Below are positions 32,619 through 61,297 of a stretch of 64,000 bases of DNA, piece after piece (the first letter of the stretch is position 1; every line of letters begins with the position of its first letter). A program made the position numbers and the translations under genes. The notes beneath the pieces are model-generated. The model was not told where the DNA came from, made no database searches, and worked only from the letters and a program-made list of their open reading frames with translations. Source of the stretch: Bacteroidales bacterium (GTDB lineage Bacteria > Bacteroidota > Bacteroidia > Bacteroidales > F082); the NCBI GenBank assembly GCA_015709215.1, contig JACCQN010000015.1, positions 1-64,000 of the forward strand, given 5' to 3'.

Positions 32619-32762
32619 GAGGGTTTAAGGGTTTAAGAGTTCACGGGTTCACGGGTTTACGGGTTTACGGGTTTACGGGTTTACGGGTTTACGGGTTTAC
32701 GGGTTTAAGGGTTTAAGGGTTTAAGAGTTTACGGGTTTAAGGGTTTAATAGTTAGCGGGTTT
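32619..32762. repeat. Octamer tandem array 1 (18 units)
   Basis: Eighteen consecutive 8-base units fill the space between rfbC and the four-helix-bundle gene. On the plus strand the consensus is ACGGGTTT, with variants AAGGGTTT, AAGAGTTT and ACGGGTTC. Seven successive units from 32651 to 32706 are identical. The array begins six bases before rfbC and runs into the last two bases of the four-helix-bundle stop codon. Spaced GGG triplets on the plus strand could form G-quadruplexes. The same octamer occurs in the opposite orientation at 33271-33398. Confidence 0.97.
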
Positions 32763-33111
32763 AATTGAGTGTTTTCAAGTATTTTATCAGTTTTATTAGT
32801 TTTGATCTTATAACTGATAAGGATTCAGTTAGTTGGGTTGATTGCAGATAATTCAATCTTTCGGTAATAATAAGTTGAGTTTCCAGTTCTGAAAGTGACC
32901 CTAAAGCGATATTGAGAAACTGAAGGAATTGTTGATTACTGTTTCTTGCAGATCCTTCTGCAATATTCGATGGAATAGAAACAGCTGCACGACGCATCTG
33001 ACTTATAAGGCCATATTTTTCTTCATCAGGAAAGGTTTTTGTGATGTTGTATATATCAACCACAAAATCTATAGACAACTGCCATATTTCAAGCTCTTTA
33101 TGTGTAGCCAT
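32761..33111 (-). CDS. Four-helix-bundle protein (23S rRNA intervening-sequence protein family)
   Basis: A 116-residue protein of the S23/IVP four-helix-bundle family (TIGR02436-like). Hallmarks are an N-terminal KELEIWQLSIDF, the central QMRRAAVSIPSNIAEGSAR near residues 39-57, and QFLQFLNIALGSLSELETQL near residues 62-81. Relatives were first found inside intervening sequences of bacterial 23S rRNA, and others act as accessory variability determinants (Avd) in diversity-generating retroelements. No reverse transcriptase or rRNA is seen here. Instead it is free-standing and enclosed by inverted octamer arrays. It probably forms a basic pentamer that binds nucleic acid, by homology. Confidence 0.93.
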   Translation of the reverse strand: MATHKELEIWQLSIDFVVDIYNITKTFPDEEKYGLISQMRRAAVSIPSNIAEGSARNSNQQFLQFLNIALGSLSELETQLIITERLNYLQSTQLTESLSVIRSKLIKLIKYLKTLN

Positions 33112-38505: not shown

Positions 38506-40755
38506 ATGAAGCATTTTTTTAAAGCTTTAACAGTAGCGCTTGTTAGCCTGTTACTGACGTGTGTGGTGATGTCTGATGCCATGGCACAGCAAACACTGGC
38601 AGACGTTAAAGAGGAACGTAGGCTTAGTGACGAGGATGTTTTGGCCGCTACCAAAACATTTATGCCTCGCGGAGGGCGCGATGAGTACTTTGCTTTCGTT
38701 GGATCGGGTAATTCCGGAACCATGATCGTTTATGGTTTGCCTTCGATGCGCATTTACAAGTATGTGGGTGTGTTTTCACCAGAACCATGGCAAGGCTATG
38801 GATTCGATGATGAAAGTACGCTTGTTATCAAAAAGGGATCGCTCGACAACACCTTATTAAAATATGGTGACATGCGATTTCCGGCACTCAGCGAAACAGA
38901 CGGAAAGTACAATGGGAAATATCTGTTTTATTCAGACGGAGCCAACTCGCGTATTGCGGTGTTGGGTCTCGACGACTTTGAAACCAAACAGGTTTTGATG
39001 CACCCGCTCTTTATTAATGCATTTCCTGGCGTTTCGGTTTCACAAAACAACGAATTTGTATTTCAAACCAGCGAATATCCCACTCCCTGGGATCATCGCG
39101 AAGCTGATGTGGCCACTGAATTTGAAACCAAATTTAAATCAGGGATCACTTCATGGAAATTTGAAGATACGGATGATGCAGCAGGAACAGGTCATCATAT
39201 TGGACGTTTGATCAAAGAAACTTCATTCACACTTGAATTGCCGCCACTTACACTAGGATTTTTTGATGCAGGAAGACTCGAAAGTCATGGTTTACTGGTT
39301 GGTTTGGCTAGTTATCAGAATCAAAACTTTGTTTATGTGTATGATTACCTCAAAGCCAGCGGCCTTGAAACATCTGAAATCAACGAATTTAATGTTATTC
39401 CTTTTGAAAAAGGAAAACAAGCAGGTGCTTTTGCTTTAATCCCAATTGATGAAGCGCCTATGAGCGTGAAAGTTGATCCAACAGGAAAATACTTTATCAC
39501 CGCCTCGAATAAAGCCTTGGTTTTCGATTTTCAAAAAGTGAAAACCGCACTCAGTCAGCAAGCTTTTTCGGGCGAAATATTGGGAATTCCACAGCTGAAT
39601 GCCAGTGAACTACTGCAGGGTCAGCTGGATTTGGGTAACAAAGTTGTAGATCTTGCATTCGACTACCGCCCCGAAATGGTTTATGCTTCCGTTTATAACG
39701 ACAAAAAAATCGTTCGCTGGAATTATGTAACCAGTCAGGTTGATGAAACTTTAGTTTTATCCTTTAAACCTGGCCATTTGATGACACCTCAGGGTAATTC
39801 TGTCGAGCCTCATTCCAACTACCTTACCGTTGTAAATAAGGAAGGCTTGTATGAGAATATGATTAACACAGGTCCTACACGTCCGAGCTACAATCATTTG
39901 ATTGATATTTCTTCTGACAAGATGCGGGATATCTATACCATGACAATTCCGCAGGCCAATATGTACGGCTCGGTAAGTGTTTTGCGCACAACCATTAAGC
40001 CGATCATTCGTTATCCGCTTGGCACGAATACACGTACTGGAGAAATTTCAAGGTTTAAAACTGTTGCCGGTCAGGAAAAGATCGAACGCGAAGGAAATCG
40101 TGTTCACGTTTTCGGCACACTTATCAGGTCGCATATCACACCAGAAATTGTTGAAATAGAAGAAGGAGATGTGGTTACATTCCACCTTACAAATTTGGAA
40201 CGCGCTGAAGATGAAACACATGGTTTCACGGTTTCAACTTACGGTGTGCATGGTAGCTTTGAACCCGGAAAAACAGCCTCACTCACCTTTACGGCTGACA
40301 GAGCAGGTGTATTTCCTTATTACTGTACAGAGTTCTGTTCGGCGCTTCACCTCGAGATGGAAGGTATTCTTTTGGTAAGACCCAAAGGTTATGTGGCTTC
40401 TGGTGATGATAGTGGTGAAATTGAGCTAACTCAGGAACAATTGCTTGAATATAAGAAGAATTATGAAGATAAACTTGTCGTAATCAACGAATTGCAGGAT
40501 GTTATCAATAGTGTGGTCACTTATCTGAAAGAAAATGATTACCAGAAATATCCTTATGTGGAAGCGCTTGTTGTTGATGCACTCGACCAGCTTGAATTGG
40601 CCAAAGTATCAAAAGCCAATTACGAAAGATATGCAGCCGAAGGCAAGTGGAGAGACGCTTTCTTGTGGGCAGAGCAATACTGGCAATATCAGGTTAAAAC
40701 TGCTGATGTTGGATTAAGAGCCAAAAAGTTGTTGTCTGAACAAATCAGCATGTAA
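38506..40755 (+). CDS. NosZ paralogue with CuA site but no CuZ site
   Basis: A 749-residue protein with a Sec signal (cleavage after AMA near residue 27). It is homologous over its length to the next gene and to clade II NosZ. The C-terminal cupredoxin domain has all CuA ligands: His572 (ETHGF) and Cys607, Glu609, Cys611, His615 and Met618 in YYCTEFCSALHLEM. In the beta-propeller the catalytic CuZ ligands are mostly lost: the DTHH pair is Arg124-Phe125, and further positions are Phe173, Met319, Asp382 and about Tyr487. Only His424 remains. A helical tail of about 120 residues follows CuA. Likely an electron-transfer subunit that partners the next protein. Catalysis alone is improbable. Confidence 0.85.
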   Translation: MKHFFKALTVALVSLLLTCVVMSDAMAQQTLADVKEERRLSDEDVLAATKTFMPRGGRDEYFAFVGSGNSGTMIVYGLPSMRIYKYVGVFSPEPWQGYGFDDESTLVIKKGSLDNTLLKYGDMRFPALSETDGKYNGKYLFYSDGANSRIAVLGLDDFETKQVLMHPLFINAFPGVSVSQNNEFVFQTSEYPTPWDHREADVATEFETKFKSGITSWKFEDTDDAAGTGHHIGRLIKETSFTLELPPLTLGFFDAGRLESHGLLVGLASYQNQNFVYVYDYLKASGLETSEINEFNVIPFEKGKQAGAFALIPIDEAPMSVKVDPTGKYFITASNKALVFDFQKVKTALSQQAFSGEILGIPQLNASELLQGQLDLGNKVVDLAFDYRPEMVYASVYNDKKIVRWNYVTSQVDETLVLSFKPGHLMTPQGNSVEPHSNYLTVVNKEGLYENMINTGPTRPSYNHLIDISSDKMRDIYTMTIPQANMYGSVSVLRTTIKPIIRYPLGTNTRTGEISRFKTVAGQEKIEREGNRVHVFGTLIRSHITPEIVEIEEGDVVTFHLTNLERAEDETHGFTVSTYGVHGSFEPGKTASLTFTADRAGVFPYYCTEFCSALHLEMEGILLVRPKGYVASGDDSGEIELTQEQLLEYKKNYEDKLVVINELQDVINSVVTYLKENDYQKYPYVEALVVDALDQLELAKVSKANYERYAAEGKWRDAFLWAEQYWQYQVKTADVGLRAKKLLSEQISM

Positions 40756-40783
40756 TTTAATAATCACCAAGAAATTTTGTGTT

Positions 40784-43168
40784 ATGAAAAAATATAATCC
40801 ATACACCACTCCTGGTCTTCTGATGACAGTTATGGTCGTTGCTGCAATGGCGTTTTTTACGGCTTGCGACACTCAAGGAGACAAAGCAAAGTCTGGCGTT
40901 ACAGGAGCGCCATACGGAGACGAGTCATTAAATGACATCGTGAAGCGCCGTGGTTTAAATGCAGACGATGTTTTGTCTGCTGCTAAAACCTATACCCCTG
41001 ATAACCTGAAAGATGAGTATATTGCCATGAACTCTGGAGGACAAGCCGGAAACATGATTCTTTATACCGTTCCTTCGATGAGAATAGTAAAATATGTACC
41101 AACTTCATCCAGACAACCTGTAAATGGATTTGGCTATAGCAAAGAAAGCTCCGAAATTTTGCGTTCGGGCTATATCGACGGACAGGTAATTGATTGGGGT
41201 GATACACACCATCCGGGCTTTTCCGAAACAAATGGAAACTATGATGGGAAATGGGCCGTGATAAATGATAAAGCCAATCCACGTGTTTTTGTTATCTCGC
41301 TCAAAGATTGGGAACTTAAGCAAACGGTTAACAACCCAATTTTCAGGAGTAATCACGGTGGTTGCTTCTTTACGCCAAACTCTGAATATATTGGCGAGGC
41401 CTGTCAGTATCCTGCACCATTAGACAGAAAATACTATCCGCTTACTGAGAAAAACTTCAGGAAATACTGGCGGGGTGGTTTGACATACTGGAAATTTAAT
41501 AATGACATAGGTCGTATCGAAGAAGATAAATCCTTCACCATCGAGTTTCCTCCTTATACACAGGACTTAACTGATATGGGTAAGAATGCCAGTGATGGCT
41601 GGTCTTTTACAAATTCATTCTGTACAGAGATGTATTATGGTGGAATTGAAAGTGGCCGCCCGCCTTTCGAAGCTGGTTGCTCTTCGCGCGATGTTGACTA
41701 CCTGCATGTAGTAAACTGGAAAAAAGCTGAACAATTGGTGAACCAGGGAAACTATAAAATGGTTAATGGTCATAAGGTTATTCCGATTGAGGTGGCCACT
41801 GCCAACAATATTTTCTTCCTGATTCCAGAGCCTAAATCACCTCACGGTGTGGATGTTAGCCCCGATGGAAAATATATTGTTGTAGCTGGTAAACTCGATT
41901 CACATGCCTGGGTTTATTCTTGGGATAAGATTACAAAGGCTATCAAAGAGAAAAACTTTGAAGGTACTGACGAATTTGGTGTGCCAATTATTTCACTCGA
42001 AACAGCACTTCATGGTAGTGTAGAAGTTGGTTTGGGACCTTTGCATAATCAATATGATGATGAACCAGGCGTTATTTATACTTCAATTTATGTGGATTCT
42101 CGCATCACCAAGTGGGACTATATCAACCTGAAAGTGCTTGATTATGTATCTTCACATTACAATGTTGGTCACCTTGTTTCGGCTCATGGCGATGCTGTTA
42201 ACCCTCATGGTAAATATCTGATTTCACTCAATAAATTGTCTATCGACCGTTTCAATCCGGTAGGTCCTTTGCATCCGCAAAATCACCAGCTGATCGATAT
42301 CGATGCTGATAAGATGACAATCCTTTACGACTTACCTATTCCAATGGGAGAGCCTCACTATACTGCGCTTATTAGGGATGATAATTTTGAGTCGTTCGAA
42401 ACCTATGAAACAGGTACTAATATTTATACGATGGAGAAATCGCCTTATTTTACTGACTTAGGTTCAGAACGAGTTGAAACAAAAGGGAATAAGGTGCATG
42501 TTTACGCTACTATTAATGATGGAAAGGTGAAACCCGGCAACATTACCATAGATCAGGGTAAAGATGTTGAAATTCACATTACCAACCACGGACAAACCAA
42601 ACTTGATCATTATGTGTATGAAATTGCAGCCTATGATCAGATGTATCGCTGGAGACCAGGCGAAACTGCCACTTTGGAATTCAAGGCCGAAAGAGCTGGG
42701 ATGTATCCACTTTTGCTCGATCATTTTCATAGTGCTGATGGCAGAGCATTGCAAGGTTATCTGACAGTAAATCATGTAGAAGCCGCTGAAAGCGAACGCT
42801 TATTGGCTTATTCAAAACGTGTTCAGGCAGATATGCAGATGCAGGCCTTCCAGCCATCCGCTATCGAAATGAAAAACCTGCTCGAAGGTGAAATGGAATT
42901 CCTGAATTATGGATGTAATGCTTGTCACAAATTTGGAGAAGACTTTAACGGCCCTGACCTCTTGATGGTTGATAAACGCCGCACTGATGACTGGCTAAAA
43001 TCCTGGATTATGAATCCTGAAGAACATTTTGATGAAGCAGACATTGAAGCCATGCGTCAGCGCTATAAACTGGCCATGCCTAATCAAAATGTTTCTGAAG
43101 AGGATGTTGCTAAAATTATTACTTACCTTAAACTCCGTACTAATCAATACTTAACTGAACAACAATAG
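40784..43168 (+). CDS. nosZ: NosZ with CuZ site, heme c domain and no CuA site
   Basis: A 794-residue N2O reductase homologue of clade II type, predicted lipoprotein (lipobox FTAC, Cys28). The propeller keeps all seven CuZ histidines: His142-His143 (DTHH), His191 (SNHGG), His354 (SPHG), His421 (PLHNQ), His463 (VGHL) and His525 (EPHY). The cupredoxin region is present, but the CuA ligands are replaced: Leu645, His647, His649, Gly653 and Leu656 stand where the partner has Cys, Glu, Cys, His and Met. A C-terminal class I cytochrome c domain has CNACH (711-715) and Met765. It should reduce N2O at CuZ with electrons from its own heme or from CuA of the preceding protein. Confidence 0.88.
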   Translation: MKKYNPYTTPGLLMTVMVVAAMAFFTACDTQGDKAKSGVTGAPYGDESLNDIVKRRGLNADDVLSAAKTYTPDNLKDEYIAMNSGGQAGNMILYTVPSMRIVKYVPTSSRQPVNGFGYSKESSEILRSGYIDGQVIDWGDTHHPGFSETNGNYDGKWAVINDKANPRVFVISLKDWELKQTVNNPIFRSNHGGCFFTPNSEYIGEACQYPAPLDRKYYPLTEKNFRKYWRGGLTYWKFNNDIGRIEEDKSFTIEFPPYTQDLTDMGKNASDGWSFTNSFCTEMYYGGIESGRPPFEAGCSSRDVDYLHVVNWKKAEQLVNQGNYKMVNGHKVIPIEVATANNIFFLIPEPKSPHGVDVSPDGKYIVVAGKLDSHAWVYSWDKITKAIKEKNFEGTDEFGVPIISLETALHGSVEVGLGPLHNQYDDEPGVIYTSIYVDSRITKWDYINLKVLDYVSSHYNVGHLVSAHGDAVNPHGKYLISLNKLSIDRFNPVGPLHPQNHQLIDIDADKMTILYDLPIPMGEPHYTALIRDDNFESFETYETGTNIYTMEKSPYFTDLGSERVETKGNKVHVYATINDGKVKPGNITIDQGKDVEIHITNHGQTKLDHYVYEIAAYDQMYRWRPGETATLEFKAERAGMYPLLLDHFHSADGRALQGYLTVNHVEAAESERLLAYSKRVQADMQMQAFQPSAIEMKNLLEGEMEFLNYGCNACHKFGEDFNGPDLLMVDKRRTDDWLKSWIMNPEEHFDEADIEAMRQRYKLAMPNQNVSEEDVAKIITYLKLRTNQYLTEQQ

Positions 43169-43265: not shown

Positions 43266-43625
43266 ATGAAAAGAAAATTCATTGCTCTATTCGGAGGATT
43301 ACTCTTTACTGTAATGCTCAGCAGCTGTGGCGGCGGTGGTGGAAAAACTGCTGATCTGGCCAATGGTGAAACAATCTATAACAAAGCATGTATAGCTTGT
43401 CACTTAAAAGGTGTAGCCGGTGCTGCTGCTCTTGATGATACTCCCCGTTGGGAAGAACTTGCTGCCAAAGGTATGACTACACTCGTGCAACATGCCAATT
43501 CCGGATACACCGGAAATTATGGCGTTATGCCCGAAAAAGGAACCTGTATGGATTGCTCCGAACAGGATCTTTACGATGCCATCAGTTTTATGTTTAGTAA
43601 AGCCGGTGTTGAACCAAAGCAATAA
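43266..43625 (+). CDS. Small cytochrome c lipoprotein, c5-like
   Basis: A 119-residue predicted lipoprotein (lipobox SSC near residue 21, then a Gly-rich linker). It has one class I heme c domain with CIACH near residue 42-46 and the distal Met in GVMPEKGTCMDCSEQDL. The CxxC pair after this Met is typical of cytochrome c5. It lies directly after the NosZ pair and probably carries electrons to it from alternative complex III or NosGH. That role is inferred from position. Confidence 0.88.
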   Translation: MKRKFIALFGGLLFTVMLSSCGGGGGKTADLANGETIYNKACIACHLKGVAGAAALDDTPRWEELAAKGMTTLVQHANSGYTGNYGVMPEKGTCMDCSEQDLYDAISFMFSKAGVEPKQ

Positions 43626-43643: not shown

Positions 43644-44423
43644 ATGAAGTCAAAGACCTACATCATTTTTGCAATCATTGGTGTCATTTTTGTTGGCATT
43701 ACTTATTTCACACCGATATGGGGAGTAGCTCTGCAAAGTATTCAATATCCTAAATCCATGTATCCGAAGGGAATCCGTATCAACTTTAAGTTTAATGGGG
43801 TTTACAACGGCTGCGAAGGAGTGAAGGAAAGAGAAGAATTGGCAACAAACGAAGGTGCAGATTGCCTAATGGAAATGAATGCCATCAATCACTACATCGG
43901 TATGTATCCGATTGTGCAAGGCAGGAATAATCCTCCATCATTGGATCATCCAAGTTTTTATGTGTTCGATACTCAGAGAGATGCAGAAGGACATGATGTA
44001 TATGATCCGGCAACTGGACAGAAAATTAAGATTGATGTAACGCCAACTACACTTAAGGTTTTGAATACCATAATGACCTATACGCCTTATATTTTTGTGT
44101 TGTTTATTCTTTTGGGGTTGTATTTTATCGCAACACCAAAGAAACTCAATCTGGTAGCAGGTTTAATTCCTGCTTTAGTGCCTTTTTATTTTCTGTTTGT
44201 GTATATGTATTACCTGTATTGGTATGGCCATAACCTGGGATTGCATGGCGGCGGAGCCTTTGCTGGCATCAAACCGTTTATGCCAACCGTATTTGGGGAA
44301 GGAAAAGTAGCTCAGTTTACTACTGAATCATATCCTTACTATGGTTTTTACATTGCGCTGGCAGCTTTTGTTTTCATGATACTGGCGATTCTTTTGAAAC
44401 GTAAATCACTTCGAACAGCATAA
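43644..44423 (+). CDS. NosB-like membrane protein
   Basis: A 259-residue membrane protein with one N-terminal helix (residues 6-27), a periplasmic loop of about 110 residues, and three C-terminal helices (about 138-160, 168-192, 234-253). The loop has a conserved-looking FNGVYNGCEGVKERE...DCLMEMNAINHYIGMYP segment with two Cys. Its place between nosZ and nosD matches nosB of epsilonproteobacterial and other clade II nos clusters. The family link is by position and topology, and the function of NosB is unknown. Confidence 0.65.
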   Translation: MKSKTYIIFAIIGVIFVGITYFTPIWGVALQSIQYPKSMYPKGIRINFKFNGVYNGCEGVKEREELATNEGADCLMEMNAINHYIGMYPIVQGRNNPPSLDHPSFYVFDTQRDAEGHDVYDPATGQKIKIDVTPTTLKVLNTIMTYTPYIFVLFILLGLYFIATPKKLNLVAGLIPALVPFYFLFVYMYYLYWYGHNLGLHGGGAFAGIKPFMPTVFGEGKVAQFTTESYPYYGFYIALAAFVFMILAILLKRKSLRTA

Positions 44424-44467: not shown

Positions 44468-45781
44468 ATGAAAAAGCTTGAATTTCTCATAGGATTGTTT
44501 CTGATTTCTCTTTTTGCGCCGGCTTTGGCTCAGGAAGGATTACAGTTTGGACCTGCCATCAAAATTGAAGGCTATTCTGATAGAAGTAATCCGATTCCGC
44601 TTCAGGAAATTATTGATCGTACACCTCCCGGAAAATATGTTGCTCTTGAGCCTGGATTTTATACTGGCCCTGTAAAAATTACACGTAATGCTATAACACT
44701 TGATGGCGAAGGAAAAGTAACGATTTCTGGTCTGGGTAAGTCATCGGTAATTTTTATGGAGACCAATAATGTAGTTCTCAAAAATCTCCATATTATCGAA
44801 TCAGGAGGATCGCATGATAAGATTGATTGCGGGGTAAAAATCATTGGAAATCATAATGTTGTAACAAACTGTTTGATTGAAGAATGTCTTTTTGGGGTGG
44901 ATATTTTTCAGTCGGAGCATAATTTAATCGAGTACAACGAAATCACTTCACTTTCAAAACGAAGCATGGCCCTCAAAGGAGATGCCATTCGTTTGTGGTA
45001 TTCAAAAAATAACCTCATCAAAGGAAATTATTGGCACAATGTGCGCGATATGGTTGTTTGGTATTCATCCGAAAACACTTTTGAAGCCAACAAAGGTGTC
45101 GGAAACCGCTATAGCATCCACTTTATGTATGCGCACAATAACAGGATTAACGACAATTATTTTTATGAAAATTCGGTTGGCGTCTTCCTCATGTACAGCG
45201 AAATGACTGTAATGACGGGCAATACCATCATGCACTCGAATGGTGTGAGTGGGATGTGCCTGGGAATGAAGGAAACTTCTTCAAATCAGATTTTGCATAA
45301 TCGTTTTATTTACTCTGCCGAGGGTATTCACGTTGATGTTTCACCTTTTGTCCCTGAAAAGACGAACACAGTGATGTATAACGAAATAGCTTTTTGTAGC
45401 GTAGGAATTAAATTTCACACCAATCAGGAAGGCAACCTATACAAGCATAATTATTTTCATAACAACCTGGTTCAGGTTGAAGCGGAAGGAAAAACAGCTA
45501 ATTTGAACCGTTGGCAGGAGAACTATTTTGATGATTATCAGGGATTTGATAAAGATGGCGATAATCTTGGCGATACGCCCTATACCTTGTTTGCTTATGT
45601 TGAACATCTTTGGTCGTTTAACCGTGATTTGAAATATTTTTATGGTTCGCCCCTTTTGCTGATACTTGATTTTTTGGAAAGATTGGCTCCTTTTTCTGAG
45701 CCAAAATTAGTTTTACGTGATAAAACACCAATTTTTAAATGGGATGAGGAGTTGGACGAAAAAATGAAAGATCAGTTATGA
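44468..45781 (+). CDS. nosD: Nitrous oxide reductase maturation protein NosD
   Basis: A 437-residue periplasmic beta-helix (CASH/NosD) protein with a signal peptide (IGLFLISLFAPALAQ). Parallel repeats with N.I..N and H.N.I.DNYFY patterns run from about residue 70 to 370. NosD works with the NosFY ABC transporter in supplying sulfur for assembly of the CuZ cluster. The final part has the usual PLLLILDFLERLAPFSEPKL segment. Its stop overlaps the next start (ATGA), so the small downstream gene is translationally coupled. Confidence 0.95.
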   Translation: MKKLEFLIGLFLISLFAPALAQEGLQFGPAIKIEGYSDRSNPIPLQEIIDRTPPGKYVALEPGFYTGPVKITRNAITLDGEGKVTISGLGKSSVIFMETNNVVLKNLHIIESGGSHDKIDCGVKIIGNHNVVTNCLIEECLFGVDIFQSEHNLIEYNEITSLSKRSMALKGDAIRLWYSKNNLIKGNYWHNVRDMVVWYSSENTFEANKGVGNRYSIHFMYAHNNRINDNYFYENSVGVFLMYSEMTVMTGNTIMHSNGVSGMCLGMKETSSNQILHNRFIYSAEGIHVDVSPFVPEKTNTVMYNEIAFCSVGIKFHTNQEGNLYKHNYFHNNLVQVEAEGKTANLNRWQENYFDDYQGFDKDGDNLGDTPYTLFAYVEHLWSFNRDLKYFYGSPLLLILDFLERLAPFSEPKLVLRDKTPIFKWDEELDEKMKDQL

Positions 45782-46179
45782 AAAAACGCCTGATTGCTTC
45801 TTTATTACTCAGTTTGCACCTGGCATTTGTTTTACTGCCGGAGGTGCAAATCTGGCAGTACCTGTACTTGATTTCAGGCATGGAGCAATCACAGGCGTTA
45901 AATTTTTCGAATGACCAGGAAAGACCTTTAACAGGTGATATCACTTATCTTTCGGCACTGATAAAACGCTCAGGAGAAGAGCATGAAAATAATGAAAAAA
46001 AAACCGATATCCCTGAAACAACGATAAGTCATACGGGCTTAATTTATTTGCCTGTCGAAACAAACATAAACATCATCATATCAAAACAGCTTGGTAGTAA
46101 GTACTTTCATTATGCTACTAACCTCATTTTTTATCCTAAAAAAGTAAATACACCTCCGCCAAAAGTAACTTTTTCGTGA
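45778..46179 (+). CDS. Small secreted protein of unknown function
   Basis: A 133-residue protein not recognised as any family. It has a signal peptide or N-terminal helix (RLIASLLLSLHLAFVLLPE), a polar middle, and a Pro-rich end (NTPPPKVTF). No Cys is present and there are only four His. It overlaps nosD by four bases and precedes the copper TonB receptor, resembling in position the short secreted proteins that often come just before metal receptor genes in Bacteroidota (DUF6660 type). Any link to copper is inference from context. Confidence 0.6.
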   Translation: MKKRLIASLLLSLHLAFVLLPEVQIWQYLYLISGMEQSQALNFSNDQERPLTGDITYLSALIKRSGEEHENNEKKTDIPETTISHTGLIYLPVETNINIIISKQLGSKYFHYATNLIFYPKKVNTPPPKVTFS

Positions 46180-46273
46180 AGCTGCCACTTGCCTCTCTCA
46201 GAAAGGCTTGGGCAGTCGAATGCATTACAAAACCTCGAATGAGGTATTAGTTTTACCATAAAAAGTTACTATC

Positions 46274-48343
46274 ATGTACAAAACAATAACAAAAATCATC
46301 GTATCGGCTGCGATCTTGGCTTTGGCAACTGTTTCGCACGCTCAAACAGATACTTTAGTGCTGGAAGAAATTCTTATTTCGGCAAAGAGTCCGTTAAACC
46401 TCACACAAACAAAAATCGCAGGACGCACCATTCAGGTTGAGAATCCTCACGACGGCGGCGCAATGTTTATCAATCAGGCTGGTTTTGGGGTCGAAAAGCG
46501 CGGCAATTATGGCATGGAACCTGTTTTGAGAGGTTTTAAATACAGCCAGCTCAATGTGCTGATTGACGGAGGTGTGCACAGTACAAATGCTTGTCCAAAC
46601 CGCATGGATCCTACAATTGCGCAGGTAGCACCCGAAGAGATTGAAAAAATCGAAGTAATCAAAGGGCCTTTTAGCGTAAGGTATGGTGCTTCCTTGGGCG
46701 GTATCATCAATATTGTAAACCGTAAGCCTGATCGTTCAATAGATCAGCATGTTGCAGGAAGTGTGGAAGCTGGATACCAATCCAATGGCGGAAATTATTA
46801 CACCAATCTTTTTGTTCAAACCGTATTGAATAAGTTCGACTTCTCGCTCAATGCGGGCTATAAGGACTATGGCAATTACGAAAGCGGATCGGGGCAGGAG
46901 ATTGCTTCTTCCTTTTCGCGTTTTGGCTATGCCATGAAAATGGGCTATCAGTTTACGCAAAGCCAGCGGCTTCAGCTAACCTGGCGTCAAAGTATGGCCA
47001 AGGATGTGCTTTATGCCGGTCTTCCGATGGATGCCGATAAAGACAATAGCAGTATCCTTTCGCTGGATTATGCTTACACAAATATCAGTCCCTTGCTCAA
47101 ATCCTTTAAGATCAAAGCGTATGGAAGTTATGTAGATCATGAAATGAGTAATACGCTGAGGCCAGCATACAAAGCTGTGCATGCTGTTTCGCCTGTTACT
47201 GCTCAGGTATTTGGAGGAAGAACAGAGTTTGGTTTACAAACGGCTTCCAATAATTTGCTTTATGCAGGAATTGATTATAAACATATTGGCAAAGACGGAG
47301 GAAGAGATCGGCTGGTGTTTAAGAATACCTGTACCGGTCAGGAATTTGATCCGCCAAAGTATTTCTTTGATAAAACATGGCAGGATTCCAATCATGATGA
47401 TTTGGGATTATTCCTCGAAAATAAGAGGGATATCAATGAAAATCTGGTTTGGACGCTGGGTTTGCGATCTGATTATATAAGCTATAGTATCAATGATCCG
47501 GCAGCTGGATTTCTGGAGCAATACAACAATGAAATTCAACCCGACGATCGTTTTGATATTTCTGCTACGACTTCACTCACCTGGTTTTTGCCAAAAGGAT
47601 TTAACCTTTATTTTGCTGCAGCAAGAGCTACACGTTCACCAGAGCTTACTGAATTGTTTATCAATCATTTGAGTGTTGGAATGGATGCTTATGAATACAT
47701 TGGTAATCCTGATTTGAAATCGGAAGTGAATTATCAAATTGATGCTCGTGTAGAAAAGAATATCAAAGGATTAACGATTTTCACTGATGTTTTCTATTCT
47801 TATGTTCAGGATTATATCACAGCAGCTGTTGATACAACGATTCCAAGGATTTATAATGCATGTATGGATCCCAAATTTACCAAACAATTCAGAAATGCTG
47901 ATGAGGTTTTCCTCACAGGATTTGAAGCTGGATTCGATTGGAAATTTGCCGAAAACTGGCATTATAATCTTTCTGCCTCTTACACTTATGGGCAGAATGT
48001 TAGCTGGGATGAGCCTTTGGCAGAAATTACGCCTTTGACGTTTCAAACAGCACTAGGCTATCAGTCCGATCTGTTTAATGCTGAAATTCATGGACGCATT
48101 GTGGACGAGCAGGATAGGATAGCAGCTTCATTTAATGAATCAAGGACGCCTGGTTTTGTTGTTTTTGACTTTTATGCCGATTACACCGCTTTTGGTTCTC
48201 TTGAAGTAATGTTTAGTGTACGTAATATCTTCAATAAGAACTATGTGGAGCACTTGAGCCGTGCCTATAAAGCTATGGATATTCAAAGCTTGTATTTCGA
48301 ACCCGGAAGGAGTTTTAATATTGGTTTGAAATATTCTTTTTAG
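46274..48343 (+). CDS. nosA: TonB-dependent copper receptor, NosA/OprC-like
   Basis: A 689-residue outer-membrane receptor. After the signal peptide (ends near AQT) comes a plug domain with NMEPVLRGF-like RG motif and the sequence NACPNRMDP, giving Cys107 and Met111. His289 and Met291 follow in DHEMSN. OprC/NosA binds copper with a CxxxM pair in the plug and an HxM pair in a barrel loop, so both halves of that site are present. A TonB-receptor barrel with C-terminal Phe completes it. NosA imports copper for N2O reductase, which fits its place in the cluster. Confidence 0.88.
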   Translation: MYKTITKIIVSAAILALATVSHAQTDTLVLEEILISAKSPLNLTQTKIAGRTIQVENPHDGGAMFINQAGFGVEKRGNYGMEPVLRGFKYSQLNVLIDGGVHSTNACPNRMDPTIAQVAPEEIEKIEVIKGPFSVRYGASLGGIINIVNRKPDRSIDQHVAGSVEAGYQSNGGNYYTNLFVQTVLNKFDFSLNAGYKDYGNYESGSGQEIASSFSRFGYAMKMGYQFTQSQRLQLTWRQSMAKDVLYAGLPMDADKDNSSILSLDYAYTNISPLLKSFKIKAYGSYVDHEMSNTLRPAYKAVHAVSPVTAQVFGGRTEFGLQTASNNLLYAGIDYKHIGKDGGRDRLVFKNTCTGQEFDPPKYFFDKTWQDSNHDDLGLFLENKRDINENLVWTLGLRSDYISYSINDPAAGFLEQYNNEIQPDDRFDISATTSLTWFLPKGFNLYFAAARATRSPELTELFINHLSVGMDAYEYIGNPDLKSEVNYQIDARVEKNIKGLTIFTDVFYSYVQDYITAAVDTTIPRIYNACMDPKFTKQFRNADEVFLTGFEAGFDWKFAENWHYNLSASYTYGQNVSWDEPLAEITPLTFQTALGYQSDLFNAEIHGRIVDEQDRIAASFNESRTPGFVVFDFYADYTAFGSLEVMFSVRNIFNKNYVEHLSRAYKAMDIQSLYFEPGRSFNIGLKYSF

Positions 48344-48411: not shown

Positions 48412-49227
48412 ATGGAAAAGGAAAAAAATAGCCTGAATCGTCGGGAGTTTTTCAAAGGTGGAATTGCTGCTGCCGGCACCTTGGCAGTAGTTGGAACAGC
48501 CACTTTTCTTCTCGATAAAAATGCTGCGCAGTCAATGCCGCGTGAAGATTTTCTGAGACCACCCGGAGCCATTTCCGAAGAGGACTTTTTGTATGGATGC
48601 ATCAAATGTGGCCTTTGTGTTCAAATTTGTCCGGTGCAAGCCATAAAACTTGCTGGTGCTGGCGAGGGTCTTGGGTTTGGTACACCTTATATTGCGCCGC
48701 GCGTTCAAGCTTGTGATTTTTCGTGTGATGCCCTGCAATGCGTTGAAACTTGCCCGACAGCCGTTCTTGATTTCAGACCCTTTAAGGAAGAAGGTGTTCG
48801 TGCTGTTGAAAAGGCTGCTGCAGAGCCAGGGGCTGATTTGTCAACGGTGAATCCTTTTGAAGTGCAAAAGGTGGCCATGAAAGAAGCTGTAAGGATGGGT
48901 AAGGCACATGTGAACAGAAATACATGTCTGGCGCACAAGGGAGAAGGTTTTAAGGGTAACCCGCGGGAAGATAATTTTGAGGGCGTACATCGGTCCCCCG
49001 GAAAAAATGAAGTGTCGGCAAGCCCTTTGAGAGATAGAATTTTCGATCGTGAGGTTTGTGATCTTTGTATTACGGAATGTCCGATAGGCGAAAAAGCCAT
49101 TATACAAAGACGCAGCAGGAGTGGGAAAAAACTTGTGCCGCATGTGCTTGACGGCTGCACAGGATGTGGTGTTTGCCAGATGGTTTGTCCTACCGCTGAA
49201 CCCAGTATTGTTGTTGAACCCTTCTAA
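48412..49227 (+). CDS. nosG: Ferredoxin-type protein NosG
   Basis: A 271-residue periplasmic iron-sulfur protein of the NapG/NosG type with a Tat-type signal (NRREFFKGG). Four 4Fe-4S clusters are indicated by CIKCGLCVQICP (near residue 63), CDFSCDALQCVETCP (near 103), CDLCITECP (near 219) and CTGCGVCQMVCP (near 248). With NosH it forms a quinol-linked electron pathway toward the periplasm in clade II nos systems, replacing NosR. The nosH gene follows after 11 bases. Confidence 0.93.
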   Translation: MEKEKNSLNRREFFKGGIAAAGTLAVVGTATFLLDKNAAQSMPREDFLRPPGAISEEDFLYGCIKCGLCVQICPVQAIKLAGAGEGLGFGTPYIAPRVQACDFSCDALQCVETCPTAVLDFRPFKEEGVRAVEKAAAEPGADLSTVNPFEVQKVAMKEAVRMGKAHVNRNTCLAHKGEGFKGNPREDNFEGVHRSPGKNEVSASPLRDRIFDREVCDLCITECPIGEKAIIQRRSRSGKKLVPHVLDGCTGCGVCQMVCPTAEPSIVVEPF

Positions 49228-49238
49228 TTCCTAAAGAC

Positions 49239-50186
49239 ATGGCATCTGATTATTTTTCCAACGCAAAGAAAAAAAGCCCGCTCACTCCCAAGGCAGTCGA
49301 GCAAATGCCACATAGTTTGGCAGGCTTGAGTTATAAAGAATGGCGCGACTCCAAAAAGAAAAACCATAAAATGCGTAATATTCGCTGGGCGTTTTTGCTT
49401 TTTATGAATCTGCTTTTTGTGGCGTCTTTCTATCTGGATCTGTCCGTTTTGGAGGGCTCATTAAGCGGTTCACGACTGATCGGCTTTTACCTGATGGATC
49501 CTTATAATGCCCTGCAACTGCTTGCAGTTTCATCTACAACAGGTTATTTGGCCATGCTCACCATGAATTTTTGGATTGGGCTTTTCACCATTCTCATCTT
49601 TTGGTTTATTTTGGGTGGTCGTTCTTTTTGTTCCTGGATGTGTCCTTATCATTTTTTAGCCGAATGGGCCGAAAAAGTTCATAACTATTTGGTTAAGAAG
49701 AAGAAAATCAAGGAAAGAACCTACCACATCGGCTTGCGCTTTGTCTTTTTAGTTGGCTTTTTGCTTTTGGCTGTATTGACAAAAAACCTGGTTTTTGAAA
49801 ACCTGAATGTAGTTGGAATTATTTCAAAAGCAATGATTTATGGCCCGAGTCTTTTGTTGCTTTGGGTGCTTGCCATTATCCTTTTCGAAGTTTTTGTGAG
49901 CCGCAGGTTTTGGTGTCGCTATGTGTGCCCGATTGGTGCTACGTACAGCATGGTTGGTAAACTTTCGCCTGTGGCAGTCAAATTTGAACATGATAAATGT
50001 GGGTATTGCCTTGAATGCCAGAAAGTATGTTTGGTTCCACACGAATTATGGTTTGTAAAACGGGGCGCAGCTACTCAGGATGTACATTTTGTTGGATCCG
50101 ATTGCACCCGATGTGGCTTGTGTGTGGATGTTTGCCCGGGAAATGCTTTAACCTATTCAGTAAGAGGAGCTTCTTCTCTTCTGTAA
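49239..50186 (+). CDS. nosH: Membrane ferredoxin protein NosH
   Basis: A 315-residue NapH/NosH-type quinol dehydrogenase component. Four transmembrane helices lie between residues 47 and 225, with the cytoplasmic CxxxCP motifs CSWMCP (near 131) and CRYVCP (near 227). Two 4Fe-4S motifs follow at the C-terminus: CGYCLECQKVCLVP and CTRCGLCVDVCP. It is expected to take electrons from menaquinol and pass them to NosG. An N-terminal cytoplasmic extension of about 45 residues precedes the first helix. Confidence 0.93.
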   Translation: MASDYFSNAKKKSPLTPKAVEQMPHSLAGLSYKEWRDSKKKNHKMRNIRWAFLLFMNLLFVASFYLDLSVLEGSLSGSRLIGFYLMDPYNALQLLAVSSTTGYLAMLTMNFWIGLFTILIFWFILGGRSFCSWMCPYHFLAEWAEKVHNYLVKKKKIKERTYHIGLRFVFLVGFLLLAVLTKNLVFENLNVVGIISKAMIYGPSLLLLWVLAIILFEVFVSRRFWCRYVCPIGATYSMVGKLSPVAVKFEHDKCGYCLECQKVCLVPHELWFVKRGAATQDVHFVGSDCTRCGLCVDVCPGNALTYSVRGASSLL

Positions 50187-50196
50187 ATAATTTTAA

Positions 50197-50868
50197 ATGA
50201 TGACTCAACAATTCAATAATCATATCATTCAAATTGAGAATCTCTCAAAAAGATTCAAGCGACAACAAGTTATTGATTCGCTGTCAGTCGATTTTTTAAG
50301 CGATCAGCGTATTGCGCTTATCGGGCAGAACGGAGCTGGGAAAACAACCTTAATTCGTTGTATTCTTGGGCAATATAATTTTGAAGGGAAGCTTGAAGTT
50401 TTAGGCCTTAATCCCAGAAAGGATCGCAGGGAAATTTTACAGCAGATTGGTTTTGTGCCTCAAACACCCCCTCCAATAAAACTGACTGTGAATGAGTTAA
50501 TGCATTTTTTTGAACGAATTACAAAAACAGATGCCTCAGCCTTTAAACGCATTAGCAGTCAGCTTGGATTGGAAATTGATCAAAACTTGCACAAGCCGTT
50601 TTACAAGCTTTCGGGCGGGATGAAACAAAAATTGCTGATAAGTTTTGCCTTGGGACGCAAAGTGAAAATTTTATTGCTCGATGAACCTTCTGCAAATCTT
50701 GATCCGCAAGCCCGTGAAATACTCTTTGCACAATTAAAAGATTACAGCAAGAACACCCTGATGATTCTGAGTAGTCACCGTATGGACGAAATAAAAGATC
50801 TCGTAAATCGTGTGATCGAAATGGACTTGGGAAAGATAGTTTTGGATAATTTATTAACAGAAAAATAA
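50197..50868 (+). CDS. nosF: ABC transporter ATPase NosF
   Basis: A 223-residue ATPase of the NosDFY transporter. Walker A is GQNGAGKTT near residue 47, the signature is KLSGGMKQK near 145, Walker B is ILLLDEPSANLD near 167, and the H-loop is SSHR near 198. It is shorter than typical NosF by lacking a long C-terminal extension. nosL and nosY follow at once, so the ATPase and permease genes are separated by nosL. Confidence 0.92.
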   Translation: MMTQQFNNHIIQIENLSKRFKRQQVIDSLSVDFLSDQRIALIGQNGAGKTTLIRCILGQYNFEGKLEVLGLNPRKDRREILQQIGFVPQTPPPIKLTVNELMHFFERITKTDASAFKRISSQLGLEIDQNLHKPFYKLSGGMKQKLLISFALGRKVKILLLDEPSANLDPQAREILFAQLKDYSKNTLMILSSHRMDEIKDLVNRVIEMDLGKIVLDNLLTEK

Positions 50869-50874
50869 GGAATT

Positions 50875-51345
50875 ATGAAAAAGATAATGTTTTTTATGGT
50901 AGCGGTTTTTGCCTTTTCGATGTGTGTTCGCAATGCAGATCAAAGTCCGCGCGAAATTAATTTCGATCGTGACATTTGTGTCAACTGCCTGATGGGATTG
51001 GCTGATGCCAAGTTTTCGGCTCAATCCATTAATATGCGCAATGAGGTTTTATGGTATGACGATTTGGGCTGTTTGATTGAATATATGGACAGCCCCGACT
51101 GGGAAAAATATGGTGGCGATGAAGCGGTTTCATATATTGCAGATGCCGAAACCGGCGAATGGATTAGGGTAGAAGAGGCCTGGTATTCCTATGGTGTTGC
51201 CACACCGATGGGCTATGGTTATGCAGCCCACAAGCAAAAATCTGATACTTCTTTCAATTTTGAGACTACGGCTCAGCGCATTCGCGATGGCATTAGTATG
51301 CGGGAGGATTTCTTGAAACAGAAAAAAATGCTTCATCACGAATAA
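50875..51345 (+). CDS. nosL: Copper chaperone lipoprotein NosL
   Basis: A 156-residue NosL-family Cu(I) chaperone for N2O reductase. Signal peptide with a lipobox-like FSMC near residue 17. The metal-binding region CVNCLMGLADAKFSAQ has Cys35, Cys38 and Met40. The family motif TPMGYGYAAH occurs near residue 109. It should deliver copper for the CuZ cluster at the membrane. Placed between nosF and nosY. Confidence 0.93.
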   Translation: MKKIMFFMVAVFAFSMCVRNADQSPREINFDRDICVNCLMGLADAKFSAQSINMRNEVLWYDDLGCLIEYMDSPDWEKYGGDEAVSYIADAETGEWIRVEEAWYSYGVATPMGYGYAAHKQKSDTSFNFETTAQRIRDGISMREDFLKQKKMLHHE

Positions 51346-51388: not shown

Positions 51389-52237
51389 ATGCAACGCAAT
51401 ATTTTTACACATTCCAGCCTCGTACAAATCATGAATGCTGATATCCGGCAAAACCTCCGCTCAAAGTGGTTTTGGACTTACAGCGTTCTTTTTGGTGGTT
51501 TTGTGGCGGTGATGTTTTCTACTGGGATTACTGAGTCTCAAATTATTGGATTTGTTGGGCTTAGCCGATTGATGGTGACTTTTATGCAGGTAAGTATGGT
51601 GATTTTGCCAATTTATGTGCTCATTACAACTGTTCGTTCGGTGGTAGGCGATCGCGAATCGAATGTAATGGAATACATGCTTTCGCTACCGGTTTCCTTT
51701 TCGGGATATTTTTGGGGAAAGTTCAGCGCAAAATTTCTGGTTACTTACATTCCGGTTTTTTTTGCTTTGCTTGGTGCTGCTGTTTGGGGAAGTATCACAC
51801 AGCTTGATGTGCCTTGGGATTTATTCATGCTTTATAGCGCTTTGCTGGCTGCAATGATATTTTGCTTTCTTGGGATCAGCATGTTTATTTCGGCTGTTTC
51901 GCATTCACAAGACTTAGCCATAAGTACTGCATTTATTTTATGGCTGCTGTTGGTCGCTTTTCTGGATCTTATCCTGATGGGTTTACTCTTGAAATTGCGT
52001 CTGGATGCCGCTACAGTGATCGGTTTTGGTATGCTTAACCCATTGCAGGTATTTCGAACAGCTGTTTTGGTTTTGTTTGATCCGGAGTTAACCGTCATGG
52101 GCGCTGCATCTTACTTTATTCTGGATACCGTGAGCAGGGGATGGTTTATAGTTTTTGCCATTTTCTATCCTATCGCTTTGGGCGGGTTGTTTGGTTGGTT
52201 TGGTAGTTACTTCTTCAAAACAAGAGATATCATTTGA
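51389..52237 (+). CDS. nosY: ABC transporter permease NosY
   Basis: A 282-residue inner-membrane permease with six predicted helices, of the NosY/ABC-2 type. The N-terminal MNADIRQNLRSKWFW amphipathic segment and the DRESNVMEYMLSLPVS segment after helix 2 are characteristic. It forms a transporter with NosF that works with periplasmic NosD in CuZ assembly. Its stop codon overlaps the next start by one base (TGATG). Confidence 0.9.
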   Translation: MQRNIFTHSSLVQIMNADIRQNLRSKWFWTYSVLFGGFVAVMFSTGITESQIIGFVGLSRLMVTFMQVSMVILPIYVLITTVRSVVGDRESNVMEYMLSLPVSFSGYFWGKFSAKFLVTYIPVFFALLGAAVWGSITQLDVPWDLFMLYSALLAAMIFCFLGISMFISAVSHSQDLAISTAFILWLLLVAFLDLILMGLLLKLRLDAATVIGFGMLNPLQVFRTAVLVLFDPELTVMGAASYFILDTVSRGWFIVFAIFYPIALGGLFGWFGSYFFKTRDII

Positions 52238-54003: not shown

Positions 54004-55212
54004 ATGACGCACTCAATCATTACCTTGCAGGGAAACCTTCAAAAAATGATGGTTCTAGGCTTATTGGGATTGTTATTATTGCCTTTTAATTTTATAAAAG
54101 CGCAAACCCCTGAAGCTTTAAAGAACTATCAACAATGTAAGGCCTGTCACAACCTCGAAGGCCCCGAATTATTAGGCCCAAATTTAACTGGCGTAACACA
54201 AAGAAGAGATACTGCCTGGCTGATTCGTTTTATTCGTAACAGTCAGGAGGTTATTGCTTCCGGAGATGAGTATGCTGTTGCTTTGTTCGAGAAGTATAAC
54301 AAAATTCCGATGCCACCGCACGATCTTACTGATGAGCAAATCATCGACATTCTTGCTCTGATAGAAAACGGTGGTCAGGTTGCTGATGAGTACCTGGCTC
54401 AGATGGAGGCTGAAGCGGACAAAGGTGCTACGGAAGATGCTGCCAGAGCTGCCGAACTTCGCGACAAAGAGCTTAAAATGGCTGAGCTCGAGCGGGATGC
54501 AAATCGTAATTTTGGTACTACCTTTATCATTACCTTGATAATTTTTCTTGTCACCCTGATAGATCTATTTGTAACTAAGGTGATAAAGGCAACTTTTGTT
54601 CACAAAACAGTGGTGCTTATTGCCTTGGTAATCATTGGTGAAGTGGTTTATAAGGAAGCTTCTGCGTTGGGTCGTCAGCATTATTACCAACCTGAGCAGC
54701 CCATTTGGTTTTCGCATGAGATACATGCCACCCAGAATAAAATTGATTGTCTCTACTGCCATTCCTCAGCTGAGGATAGCAAAAGTGCCGGAATTCCTTC
54801 GATAAATGTGTGTATGAACTGCCATAATCAGGTACGCGAAGGAAAAGTTACAGGCACAGCCGAAATCGACAAAATTCACGAAGCGTGGAATAGTGGCAAG
54901 CCCGTTGAATGGGTGCGCGTGCACAACCTGCCTGATCATGTGTATTTTAATCATGCTCAACATGTTAACTCAGGTAAGTTGGATTGTGCCGAATGCCATG
55001 GCGAAGTAGAAAAAATGGATGTCGTGATGCAAGTTGAAGACCTCAGTATGGGATGGTGCCTGGAATGTCACCGTACAACTGAAGTACAGTTTGCAAATAA
55101 CGAATTCTTTAAGTCGTATGAATTAATGCATGAGCAGTTCAAAAATGGTGAAGTCAAAAAAGTGACTGCCGATATGCTAGGTGGTGGCGATTGTATGAAA
55201 TGTCACTATTAA
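54004..55212 (+). CDS. actA: Alternative complex III subunit A, six-heme cytochrome
   Basis: A 402-residue multiheme cytochrome of ACIII. After a signal peptide comes a class I heme domain with CKACH (near residue 44). Then a charged coiled segment and two transmembrane helices (about 180-215) precede a cytochrome c3-like region with CLYCH, CMNCH, CAECH, CLECH and CMKCH. That makes six heme sites, one more than the five of the canonical ActA core, because of the fused N-terminal domain. First gene of the act operon. Confidence 0.92.
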   Translation: MTHSIITLQGNLQKMMVLGLLGLLLLPFNFIKAQTPEALKNYQQCKACHNLEGPELLGPNLTGVTQRRDTAWLIRFIRNSQEVIASGDEYAVALFEKYNKIPMPPHDLTDEQIIDILALIENGGQVADEYLAQMEAEADKGATEDAARAAELRDKELKMAELERDANRNFGTTFIITLIIFLVTLIDLFVTKVIKATFVHKTVVLIALVIIGEVVYKEASALGRQHYYQPEQPIWFSHEIHATQNKIDCLYCHSSAEDSKSAGIPSINVCMNCHNQVREGKVTGTAEIDKIHEAWNSGKPVEWVRVHNLPDHVYFNHAQHVNSGKLDCAECHGEVEKMDVVMQVEDLSMGWCLECHRTTEVQFANNEFFKSYELMHEQFKNGEVKKVTADMLGGGDCMKCHY

Positions 55213-55238
55213 TTCACTAACCTGATAAGAGATCCCAT

Positions 55239-58211: not shown

Positions 58212-58227
58212 CTAAAATCTTACAGGA

Positions 58228-59598
58228 ATGTACGTATCTCCGATCAGAGAACCACTCATCAGAGGTGAGAAGAACTACAGCCAGGTAACCAAGGATATCC
58301 TGGCTCCCATGGCCGGGAAGCCTTCTATTTATTGGTACCTGGGTATTTCACTTGCGCTAATAGCTTTAGTGTTTGGGGCATGGGCCACTTATCAAACTGT
58401 CTATTATGGTATTGGCACCTGGGGCCTCAACAAAACAGTTGGCTGGGGCTGGGGTATTACCAACTTTGTCTGGTGGGTTGGTATTGGCCATGCCGGTACT
58501 TTTATCTCAGCGATTCTATTGCTTTTCCGTCAGAAATGGCGTACCAGTATCAACCGTTCAGCCGAGGCTATGACACTAATAGCTATTGCCTGTGCCGGGT
58601 TTTTCCCTTTAATTCACATGGGACGTTTGTTGCTGGGCTTCTTTATTTTTCCGTATCCCAATACCAGAGCTTTATGGGTAAACTTTAACTCTCCATTGTT
58701 ATGGGACGTGTTTGCTATTTCTACTTATTTTGCTGTTTCACTCATATTTTGGTATGTGGGTTTGATTCCTGACCTGGGAACCGTTCGTGACAAAGCAAAA
58801 ACAAAAATCCGCAAAGCAATTTATGGTTTTTTAAGCTTTGGTTGGACAGGCTCAGCAAAGCACTGGTCACGTCACGAAACAGTAAGTTTAGTTTTGGCTG
58901 GTTTGGCGGCTCCGCTTGTGCTTTCGGTTCATACTATTGTTAGTTTCGACTTTGCAACCTCTGTTATACCTGGGTGGCATACCACGATTTTTCCACCCTA
59001 TTTTGTTTCGGGTGCGGTGTTCTCCGGCTTTGCAATGGTACTTACCTTGCTTATTGTAGCACGTAAAGCGCTTAATTTGGAGGAATATATTACCGTAAAC
59101 CACATTGAATCAATGAATAAAATAATAATTCTTACTGGTTCAATAGTGGGAATTGCCTATATCACAGAGTTTTTTATGGCTTGGTATTCTGGTGTTGAAT
59201 ATGAACAGTTTACTTTTATGAACAGAGCTTTTGGTCCTTATGCCTGGGCTTACTGGATTATGATGACATGTAATGTGGTTACGCCACAATTGTTTTGGTT
59301 TAAGAAAATCAGAACCAGTCTGACAGCCACATTCATTATTTCCATATTTGTAAATATTGGCATGTGGTTCGAACGTTTTGTGATTGTTGTAACTTCTTTG
59401 CATCGCGACTTTCTGCCTTCAAGCTGGTCAATGTATAGCCCTTCGCTTGTTGAGGTTGGGTTGTATGTAGGTACGATTGGTTTATTCTTTACCTTGTTTT
59501 TGCTTTTTATCAGGGTATTTCCTGTTATTGCAATCGCTGAGGTTAAGAGTGTGTTGAAGTCATCCGGAGATCATCAAAAAACAGCGCATCATGAATAA
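58228..59598 (+). CDS. actC: Alternative complex III subunit C (NrfD-like)
   Basis: A 456-residue integral membrane protein with about ten helices of the NrfD/PsrC family, the quinol-binding core of ACIII. Markers include [15 protein letters not shown] at the start, [16 protein letters not shown] near residue 90, and [31 protein letters not shown] near residues 232-262. It overlaps actD by eight bases. Confidence 0.95.
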
Positions 59599-60103: not shown

Positions 60104-60113
60104 ATTTTAAGCC

Positions 60114-61292: not shown

Positions 61293-61297
61293 TCGCT

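Follow-up and report, generated by a model that had tools for sequence, protein, structure and literature searches.

Adjacent NosZ paralogues with complementary copper ligands in Bacteroidales: a candidate heteromeric nitrous oxide reductase

Two adjacent genes in a Bacteroidales genome encode full-length NosZ paralogues that retain opposite copper sites: the first, NosZ-A, keeps CuA and the second, NosZ-B, keeps CuZ, and this division recurs in every A- and B-type relative that could be read at all ligand positions. We interpret the two genes as encoding paired subunits of a single nitrous oxide reductase that is obligately heteromeric, a reading to which we give a probability of roughly 0.8 and in which the complex, its stoichiometry, its metals, the electron route and the activity are inferred. 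Known NosZ, which removes the greenhouse gas nitrous oxide, forms a head-to-tail dimer, with the CuA of each chain near the CuZ of its partner and far from its own. A mixed pair packed in this way would explain why each chain can lose one site, never both, and why the losses are exactly complementary.

The working enzyme is probably a mixed A:B pair. NosZ-A would provide CuA from its cupredoxin domain, its dead propeller acting only as a scaffold, while NosZ-B, which carries a haem c, would provide the catalytic CuZ site from its propeller and retain a dead cupredoxin in the same scaffolding role. The CuA domain of NosZ-A would lie over the propeller of NosZ-B, giving one live CuA-CuZ pair per A:B dimer, and electrons would pass from a small cytochrome c, or from the haem c of NosZ-B, to the CuA of NosZ-A and then to the CuZ of NosZ-B. 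In its fuller form, which we consider likely, the reading holds that the enzyme has dispensed with half of its active sites, that the obligate A:B partners share a single asymmetric haem c-CuA-CuZ path, that the arrangement arose once, that it occurs in Bacteroidales, Flavobacteriales and Saprospiraceae (by record titles) and replaces the homodimer, and that it leaves each copper site free to evolve its maturation, location and donor docking separately.

Architecture and metal ligands of the pair

The genes lie on contig JACCQN010000015.1 of assembly GCA_015709215.1, from a Bacteroidales bacterium (F082). The window, that is, the whole stretch of DNA analysed, comprises positions 1-64,000 of this contig (64,000 nucleotides, forward strand). 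The two genes and their domains are as follows:

38506-40755, + strand: nosZ-A, full-length NosZ paralogue of 749 aa; CuA ligands kept, CuZ ligands gone
38647-40080, + strand: NosZ-A propeller without a CuZ site (from alignment; domain border approximate)
40081-40383, + strand: NosZ-A cupredoxin with the full CuA set (from alignment to NosZ)
40384-40752, + strand: NosZ-A C-terminal helical extension, a homologue of the C-terminal part of proteobacterial clade II NosZ; three long helices in a weak model
40784-43168, + strand: nosZ-B, full-length NosZ paralogue of 794 aa; seven CuZ histidines kept, CuA gone
40979-42457, + strand: NosZ-B propeller with the CuZ histidine set (from alignment; domain border approximate)
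42458-42772, + strand: NosZ-B cupredoxin without CuA ligands (from alignment to NosZ)
42881-43153, + strand: NosZ-B C-terminal c-type cytochrome domain (borders approximate), CxxCH at residues 711-715

Both frames are open and follow each other head to tail across a gap of 28 bp. The TIGR04246 model covers the full NosZ core of each protein, scoring 467 bits over residues 48-626 of NosZ-A and 692 bits over residues 66-663 of NosZ-B; its curated cut-off of 625 bits is passed by the B of the window and not by the A, which on this measure confines the family to B. In sequence searches, the top matches of both proteins were solved NosZ chains. The N-terminus of NosZ-A was judged by eye to be a Sec-type signal peptide, and its C-terminal extension of 123 residues matched the C-terminus of proteobacterial NosZ in all 33 sequences tested, at 42-53% identity. 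NosZ-B carries a lipoprotein-type signal with Cys28, a residue nearly invariant among B sequences, and a loose lipobox pattern fits 50 of 55 of them. One haem motif is found in 41 of the 54 distinct B sequences and two in 12; the single sequence with none, an ORF of 668 aa, is truncated at a contig end. The B at L090:11661-14375 and other B proteins of about 905 aa have two haem c motifs, and in the L090 protein the match at the second motif is to a cbb3-type cytochrome domain, as though by fusion of a small cytochrome.

Ligand columns were defined on the solved NosZ of Shewanella denitrificans (5i5m). Aligned to this reference, NosZ-A shows at the seven CuZ columns R124, F125, F173, M319, D382, H424 and Y487, and at the CuA columns H572, C607, E609, C611, H615 and M618. 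NosZ-B has H142, H143, H191, H354, H421, H463 and H525 at the CuZ columns and Y610, L645, H647, H649, G653 and L656 at those of CuA. Neither protein combines the seven CuZ histidines with the six CuA positions; the full set exists only in the two jointly. An earlier note, made from the DNA letters alone, had described two adjacent full-length NosZ homologues, the first with six CuA residues and without six of the seven CuZ histidines, the second with all seven histidines and with Leu, His, His, Gly and Leu in place of CuA ligands. The ORFs stand at exactly the coordinates it gave and both span the NosZ core, the alignment to 5i5m bears out both ligand descriptions, and the by-eye alignment on which they rested proved correct at every position named. 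The haem c domain and lipoprotein-type signal of NosZ-B and the helical C-terminal domain of NosZ-A are additional to what that note described.

Of the 238 matched ORFs, 40 lacked one or more of the 13 ligand positions and were left out of the ligand counts, which refer to distinct sequences complete at these positions. All 59 A combine an intact CuA with a destroyed CuZ, all 54 B combine an intact CuZ with a lost CuA, and all 52 ordinary NosZ have both sites intact. The complementary pattern is beyond chance, since it recurs without exception in the 59 distinct A and 54 distinct B sequences. No CuZ histidine remains in 47 of the A sequences and one remains in 12, and none of the 54 B has a cysteine at either CuA cysteine column. 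The replacements follow a pattern: the first three CuZ columns of A hold Arg/Trp, Phe/Tyr and Phe/Tyr (n=59), the fourth is variable (His in two), the fifth is Asp in 59 of 59, the sixth is variable (His in ten) and the seventh is Tyr in 59 of 59. The CuA columns of B hold, in order, Tyr (54/54), Leu/Ile/Phe/Val, a variable residue, mostly His or Asn (48/54), a variable residue and Leu (53/54). The incomplete rows include an A fragment of G043 with His at the first CuZ column and a B of G039, in a sequence with masked bases, with Phe in place of Tyr at the CuA histidine column.

Distribution, pairing and gene neighbourhood

Relatives were sought in the window's family, in samples of its order and phylum, and in one named genome collection. 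A NosZ match was found in 34 of 173 genomes of the family, of which 27 had A, six others had ordinary two-site NosZ and one had a fragment. The order sample yielded matches in 24 of 393 genomes: the window's own, nine more carrying the pair or parts of one, and a further 14 with ordinary NosZ, of which 13 could be read at every ligand position and one as a fragment. In the phylum sample, 128 of 395 genomes matched the B profile; 29 of the 127 non-window genomes were read at the ligand positions and all were ordinary, and the remaining 98 were judged only by score and frame length, their best score being 401.5 bits against 1640 for the B of the window. In the order and phylum samples no genome contributed more than two scored candidates, a limit that did not apply to the TIGR04246 search of 62 genomes described below. 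Among the 80 loci listed from the named collection, out of 550 found, the best 47 were A-type by their readable positions, under record titles of Bacteroidales, Lentimicrobiaceae, Flavobacteriales including Lutibacter, Saprospiraceae, Melioribacteraceae and 'Chlorobiota'. The Chlorobiota labels of L084, L085 and L113 are doubtful, these loci corresponding to G027, G239 and G029, which are elsewhere placed in the window's family or order. Each of these 47 A-type loci (best 47 of the 80 listed) bears a MAG or uncultured mark, and no cultured carrier was identified, which may be why the pair has been overlooked.

In all 45 distinct same-locus pairs B directly follows A on the same strand, and the window's own pair is additional to these. 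In the TIGR04246 search, both A and B were found in 59 of the 62 genomes of this type. The three without a complete pair are truncated at contig ends: in G161 an A accompanies a B fragment, in G221 a B has an A fragment beside it, and in G586 only part of A is seen. All inspected split cases (G029, G161, G221, G239, G435 and G586) are likewise at contig ends. An assembly or binning artefact is ruled out by the recurrence of the pair across many separate assemblies and by G143, a genome whose single contig of 3.27 Mb carries the pair and no other NosZ match. Two A/B pairs on separate contigs were seen in G565 (L095, L097) and in G150 (L065, L066), the latter with a further fragment, and in G580 a second B lies where a contig starts.

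The earlier note had held that its idea would fall if such paralogues were regularly found apart, or if a third, ordinary NosZ with both sites occurred in the same genome, and it had proposed a search for co-occurrence of the two forms without a normal NosZ. Regular separation is contradicted by the adjacency of every same-locus pair and the position of the inspected split cases. On the third NosZ the outcome is mostly in favour of the idea. None was detected in the window genome with two models, its other match being a cupredoxin-like piece of 23.8 bits (G000:C10:10741-10914, model positions 519-576), and the TIGR04246 search found none in 59 of the 62 genomes of this type. An ordinary two-site NosZ does accompany the pair in the other three (G563, G564 and G585), so that in these either the pair is not the sole N2O reductase or the bins are mixed.

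The genes following the pair in the window are listed below:

43266-43625, + strand: small mono-haem cytochrome c of 119 aa, inferred to be a possible electron donor
43644-44423, + strand: membrane protein that follows B in related loci too; NosB-like only in its position, with no match in Pfam or NCBIfam
44468-45781, + strand: nosD (family match)
46274-48343, + strand: TonB-dependent receptor within the nos cluster, possibly for metal uptake (inferred)
48412-49227, + strand: NapG/NosG-like ferredoxin (family match)
49239-50186, + strand: NapH/NosH-like membrane ferredoxin (family match)
50197-50868, + strand: nosF-like ABC ATPase (name from context)
50875-51345, + strand: nosL-like copper chaperone (Pfam NosL 17.1 bits, below the cut-off of 24)
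51389-52237, + strand: nosY-like ABC-2 permease (name from context)

A nos maturation cluster accompanies the pair, with NosD, NosF, NosY, NosL and ferredoxins, the NosL assignment being weak and those of NosF and NosY resting on context. Among related loci, NosD is present in 33 of the 34 pair loci with at least 2.4 kb downstream of B (the exception being L105), and NosG/H/F/L/Y-like genes are usually present where the contig reaches, with exceptions in L048 and in parts of L036 and L038. Embedded in the cluster of the window, at 45778-48343, are a 133-aa ORF and the TonB-dependent receptor, which is matched in many Bacteroidales pair loci and in few of those from Flavobacteriales or Saprospiraceae at 1e-6. 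Downstream of the cluster, positions 54004-61861 hold genes that we take to resemble those of alternative complex III, presumably encoding a multihaem cytochrome, an Fe-S/molybdopterin-like protein, polytopic membrane proteins, a small membrane protein and a mono-haem cytochrome; such a complex could feed quinol electrons to a periplasmic cytochrome c. A 116-aa ORF at 32761-33111, on the - strand, resembles, we assume, the four-helix-bundle S23 family.

Conservation by domain and competing explanations

If NosZ-A lends only CuA and NosZ-B only CuZ, the cupredoxin of the former and the propeller of the latter should be tightly conserved and the other halves loose. Conservation is divided between the domains as the heterodimer idea predicts. 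Mean pairwise identity is 0.900 in the cupredoxin of A, the best-conserved domain of the two core proteins, against 0.656 in its propeller, and 0.658 against 0.756 in the corresponding domains of B; conservation is higher in the cupredoxin than in the propeller for 1711 of 1711 A pairs, against 57 of 1485 B pairs. The same two domains stand at 0.669 and 0.609 in ordinary Bacteroidota NosZ and at 0.778 and 0.788 in ordinary proteobacterial NosZ. At non-ligand columns within four positions of the ligands, the values near CuA and CuZ are 0.977 and 0.732 in A, 0.795 and 0.891 in B, and 0.780 and 0.742 in ordinary NosZ. The B set of these counts (n=55) includes one repeat of the window's own B (L186).

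Residues beyond the ligands are partitioned in a similar manner. The second-shell Glu that stabilises CuZ, likewise named in PMC8301774, is replaced by Asn in all 59 A and retained in all 55 B and all 81 ordinary NosZ, and the Lys that partners this Glu is present in all, A included. The CuA-to-CuZ electron route described in the accessible part of PMC8301774 passes Phe614 (Marinobacter numbering); Phe occupies the corresponding position in all 59 A and all 81 ordinary NosZ, and in 2 of the 55 B. Distances among A and among B sequences are correlated (Mantel r 0.84, with none of 2000 permutations as high), a result that linkage and common descent alone could equally produce. Within the genus, dN/dS ranges from 0 to 0.11 in every comparison with estimable dS, the firmest values coming from the G160 comparisons, and dS is high or undefined in several domains for distant pairs. 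Such low ratios imply that the dead domains are still constrained, as would be expected of scaffolds. A pair of pseudogenes is ruled out, the frames being open and dN/dS at most 0.11 where dS can be estimated.

The heterodimer that the earlier note had proposed is thus supported by reciprocal domain conservation, by the partition of the path residue and by correlated A/B divergence, and the complex remains an inference. There is no direct evidence of an A:B complex, and the structure predictions were of single chains only. The AlphaFold2 models were poor, with mean pLDDT of 60 for A and 51 for B from alignments of 14 and 13 rows, respectively, and a Foldseek search with the weak A model placed NosZ entries at the top with TM of at most 0.39 on the query and rmsd of about 12-13 Å. 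These single-chain models are too weak to support any dimer argument.

The explanation that competes best, although we regard it as unlikely, is that NosZ-B alone is the N2O reductase, its haem c passing electrons directly to CuZ, and that NosZ-A is a separate CuA protein serving as an electron or copper carrier or as an assembly factor. With a haem motif in 53 of 54 distinct sequences, B owns a redox centre that could in principle bypass CuA, and the curated NosZ cut-off is passed by B in most of the 62 genomes and by A in none. This account leaves A to adjoin B in every same-locus pair and to contain, in its CuA domain, the most conserved domain of the pair, complete with the residue bridging CuA and CuZ; moreover, a NosZ-like homodimer of B would, we infer, place a dead cupredoxin over CuZ. 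It is more doubtful still that stable A2 and B2 homodimers dock transiently, or associate as A2B2, with CuA feeding CuZ from outside the NosZ-type interface. Stoichiometry is not fixed by sequence and both chains retain full NosZ length, as this would allow, but the path residue and the columns near CuA are nearly invariant in A, which we infer to be a better fit to the canonical interface. That the pair consists of decaying or repurposed NosZ copies which catalyse another reaction and no longer reduce N2O is very improbable, the long stem branches of A and B (1.14 and 0.74 changes per column) being outweighed by purifying selection on the pair, by the seven CuZ histidines and second-shell Glu and Lys retained in B, and by the nos maturation cluster at nearly all sufficiently long loci.

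Relation to known NosZ forms and origin

The obligately heteromeric reading sets the pair apart from known forms, which have both copper sites in each chain or, in DPANN archaea, consist of a CuA-only protein of unresolved function. Clade II NosZ (TIGR04246) resembles A and B in its full-length propeller and cupredoxin and in the maturation genes common to both, and A and B adjoin the proteobacterial Sec-type NosZ in the tree; clade I and clade II NosZ have two sites per chain, whereas A and B have one each. The Wolinella-type cNosZ has a C-terminal cytochrome c and retains its own CuA. It shares the C-terminal haem c domain with B, which differs in lacking a CuA of its own and in being paired with A. 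Clade III L-NosZ (NF052460) shows only a distant likeness in propeller and cupredoxin, and both proteins miss its cut-off of 700 bits (A 84 bits, B 125 bits); the name L-NosZ is taken from PMC13122619, of which a part was available, and the accessible text of PMC11033732 describes a lactonase-like propeller and a cupredoxin within one protein of that family.

The nearest precedent found is that of the DPANN archaeal NosZ-like proteins from oxygen-deficient zones, which, according to the portion of PMC10936187 available, have the CuA motif and no CuZ site, are shorter, and in most MAGs are surrounded by acyl carrier protein genes, with their function unresolved. The same portion reports a short five-histidine protein directly upstream in two MAGs and absent from the other MAGs. 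The likeness lies in the CuA-only protein, as in A, and in the upstream histidine protein of those two MAGs; the difference, as far as that text allows, is that here both partners are full-length and stand together in a nos cluster. In the accessible part of PMC11409646, 15 sludge MAGs have two clade II nosZ, none of them within 45 genes of each other, so these are not A/B pairs. The earlier note knew of no described N2O reductase of this kind, and no description of a split NosZ pair was found in the open full-text papers searched in PubMed Central, a scope that takes in no preprints and little of the subscription literature.

No enzyme other than NosZ is known to convert N2O to N2, as stated in the available part of PMC13122619. 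The division of its two sites between two full-length proteins, if true, would be a natural separation-of-function experiment, in which assembly, mutation and measurement could address CuA or CuZ singly in native partners. Surveys with the curated model would count B as an ordinary nosZ and miss A. As described in the accessible part of PMC9188126, the pipeline used there removed sequences without the full ligand set; with curated-model calls and ligand filtering of this kind, organisms reducing N2O by the A/B pair could be misread or lost.

In the tree, A and B each form one fully supported clade (100* in both cases), and the two fall in a starred group with proteobacterial NosZ, apart from ordinary Bacteroidota NosZ. 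This group lies within clade II, apart from the clade I outgroup (represented by one row). The quick free tree did not place A and B together, their separation being weakly supported; a tree constrained to hold A+B as one clade fitted slightly better, by 4.68 log units (p-AU 0.578). On the aligned sequences, A+B as one clade is not rejected and a single duplication is compatible, and the sister relation remains unproven because of the long stem branches. The simplest history would be one duplication of a clade II NosZ related to the proteobacterial forms, after which A would have kept the C-terminal domain and CuA, and B would have kept CuZ and gained haem c, each chain later losing the site it no longer needed. 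Five loci of another family of the phylum (L187-L191) each have a single ordinary NosZ (668-695 aa) that scores 707-721 bits against the B profile, far above other ordinary NosZ, and in the tree L187 branches just outside the group of A, B and proteobacterial NosZ.
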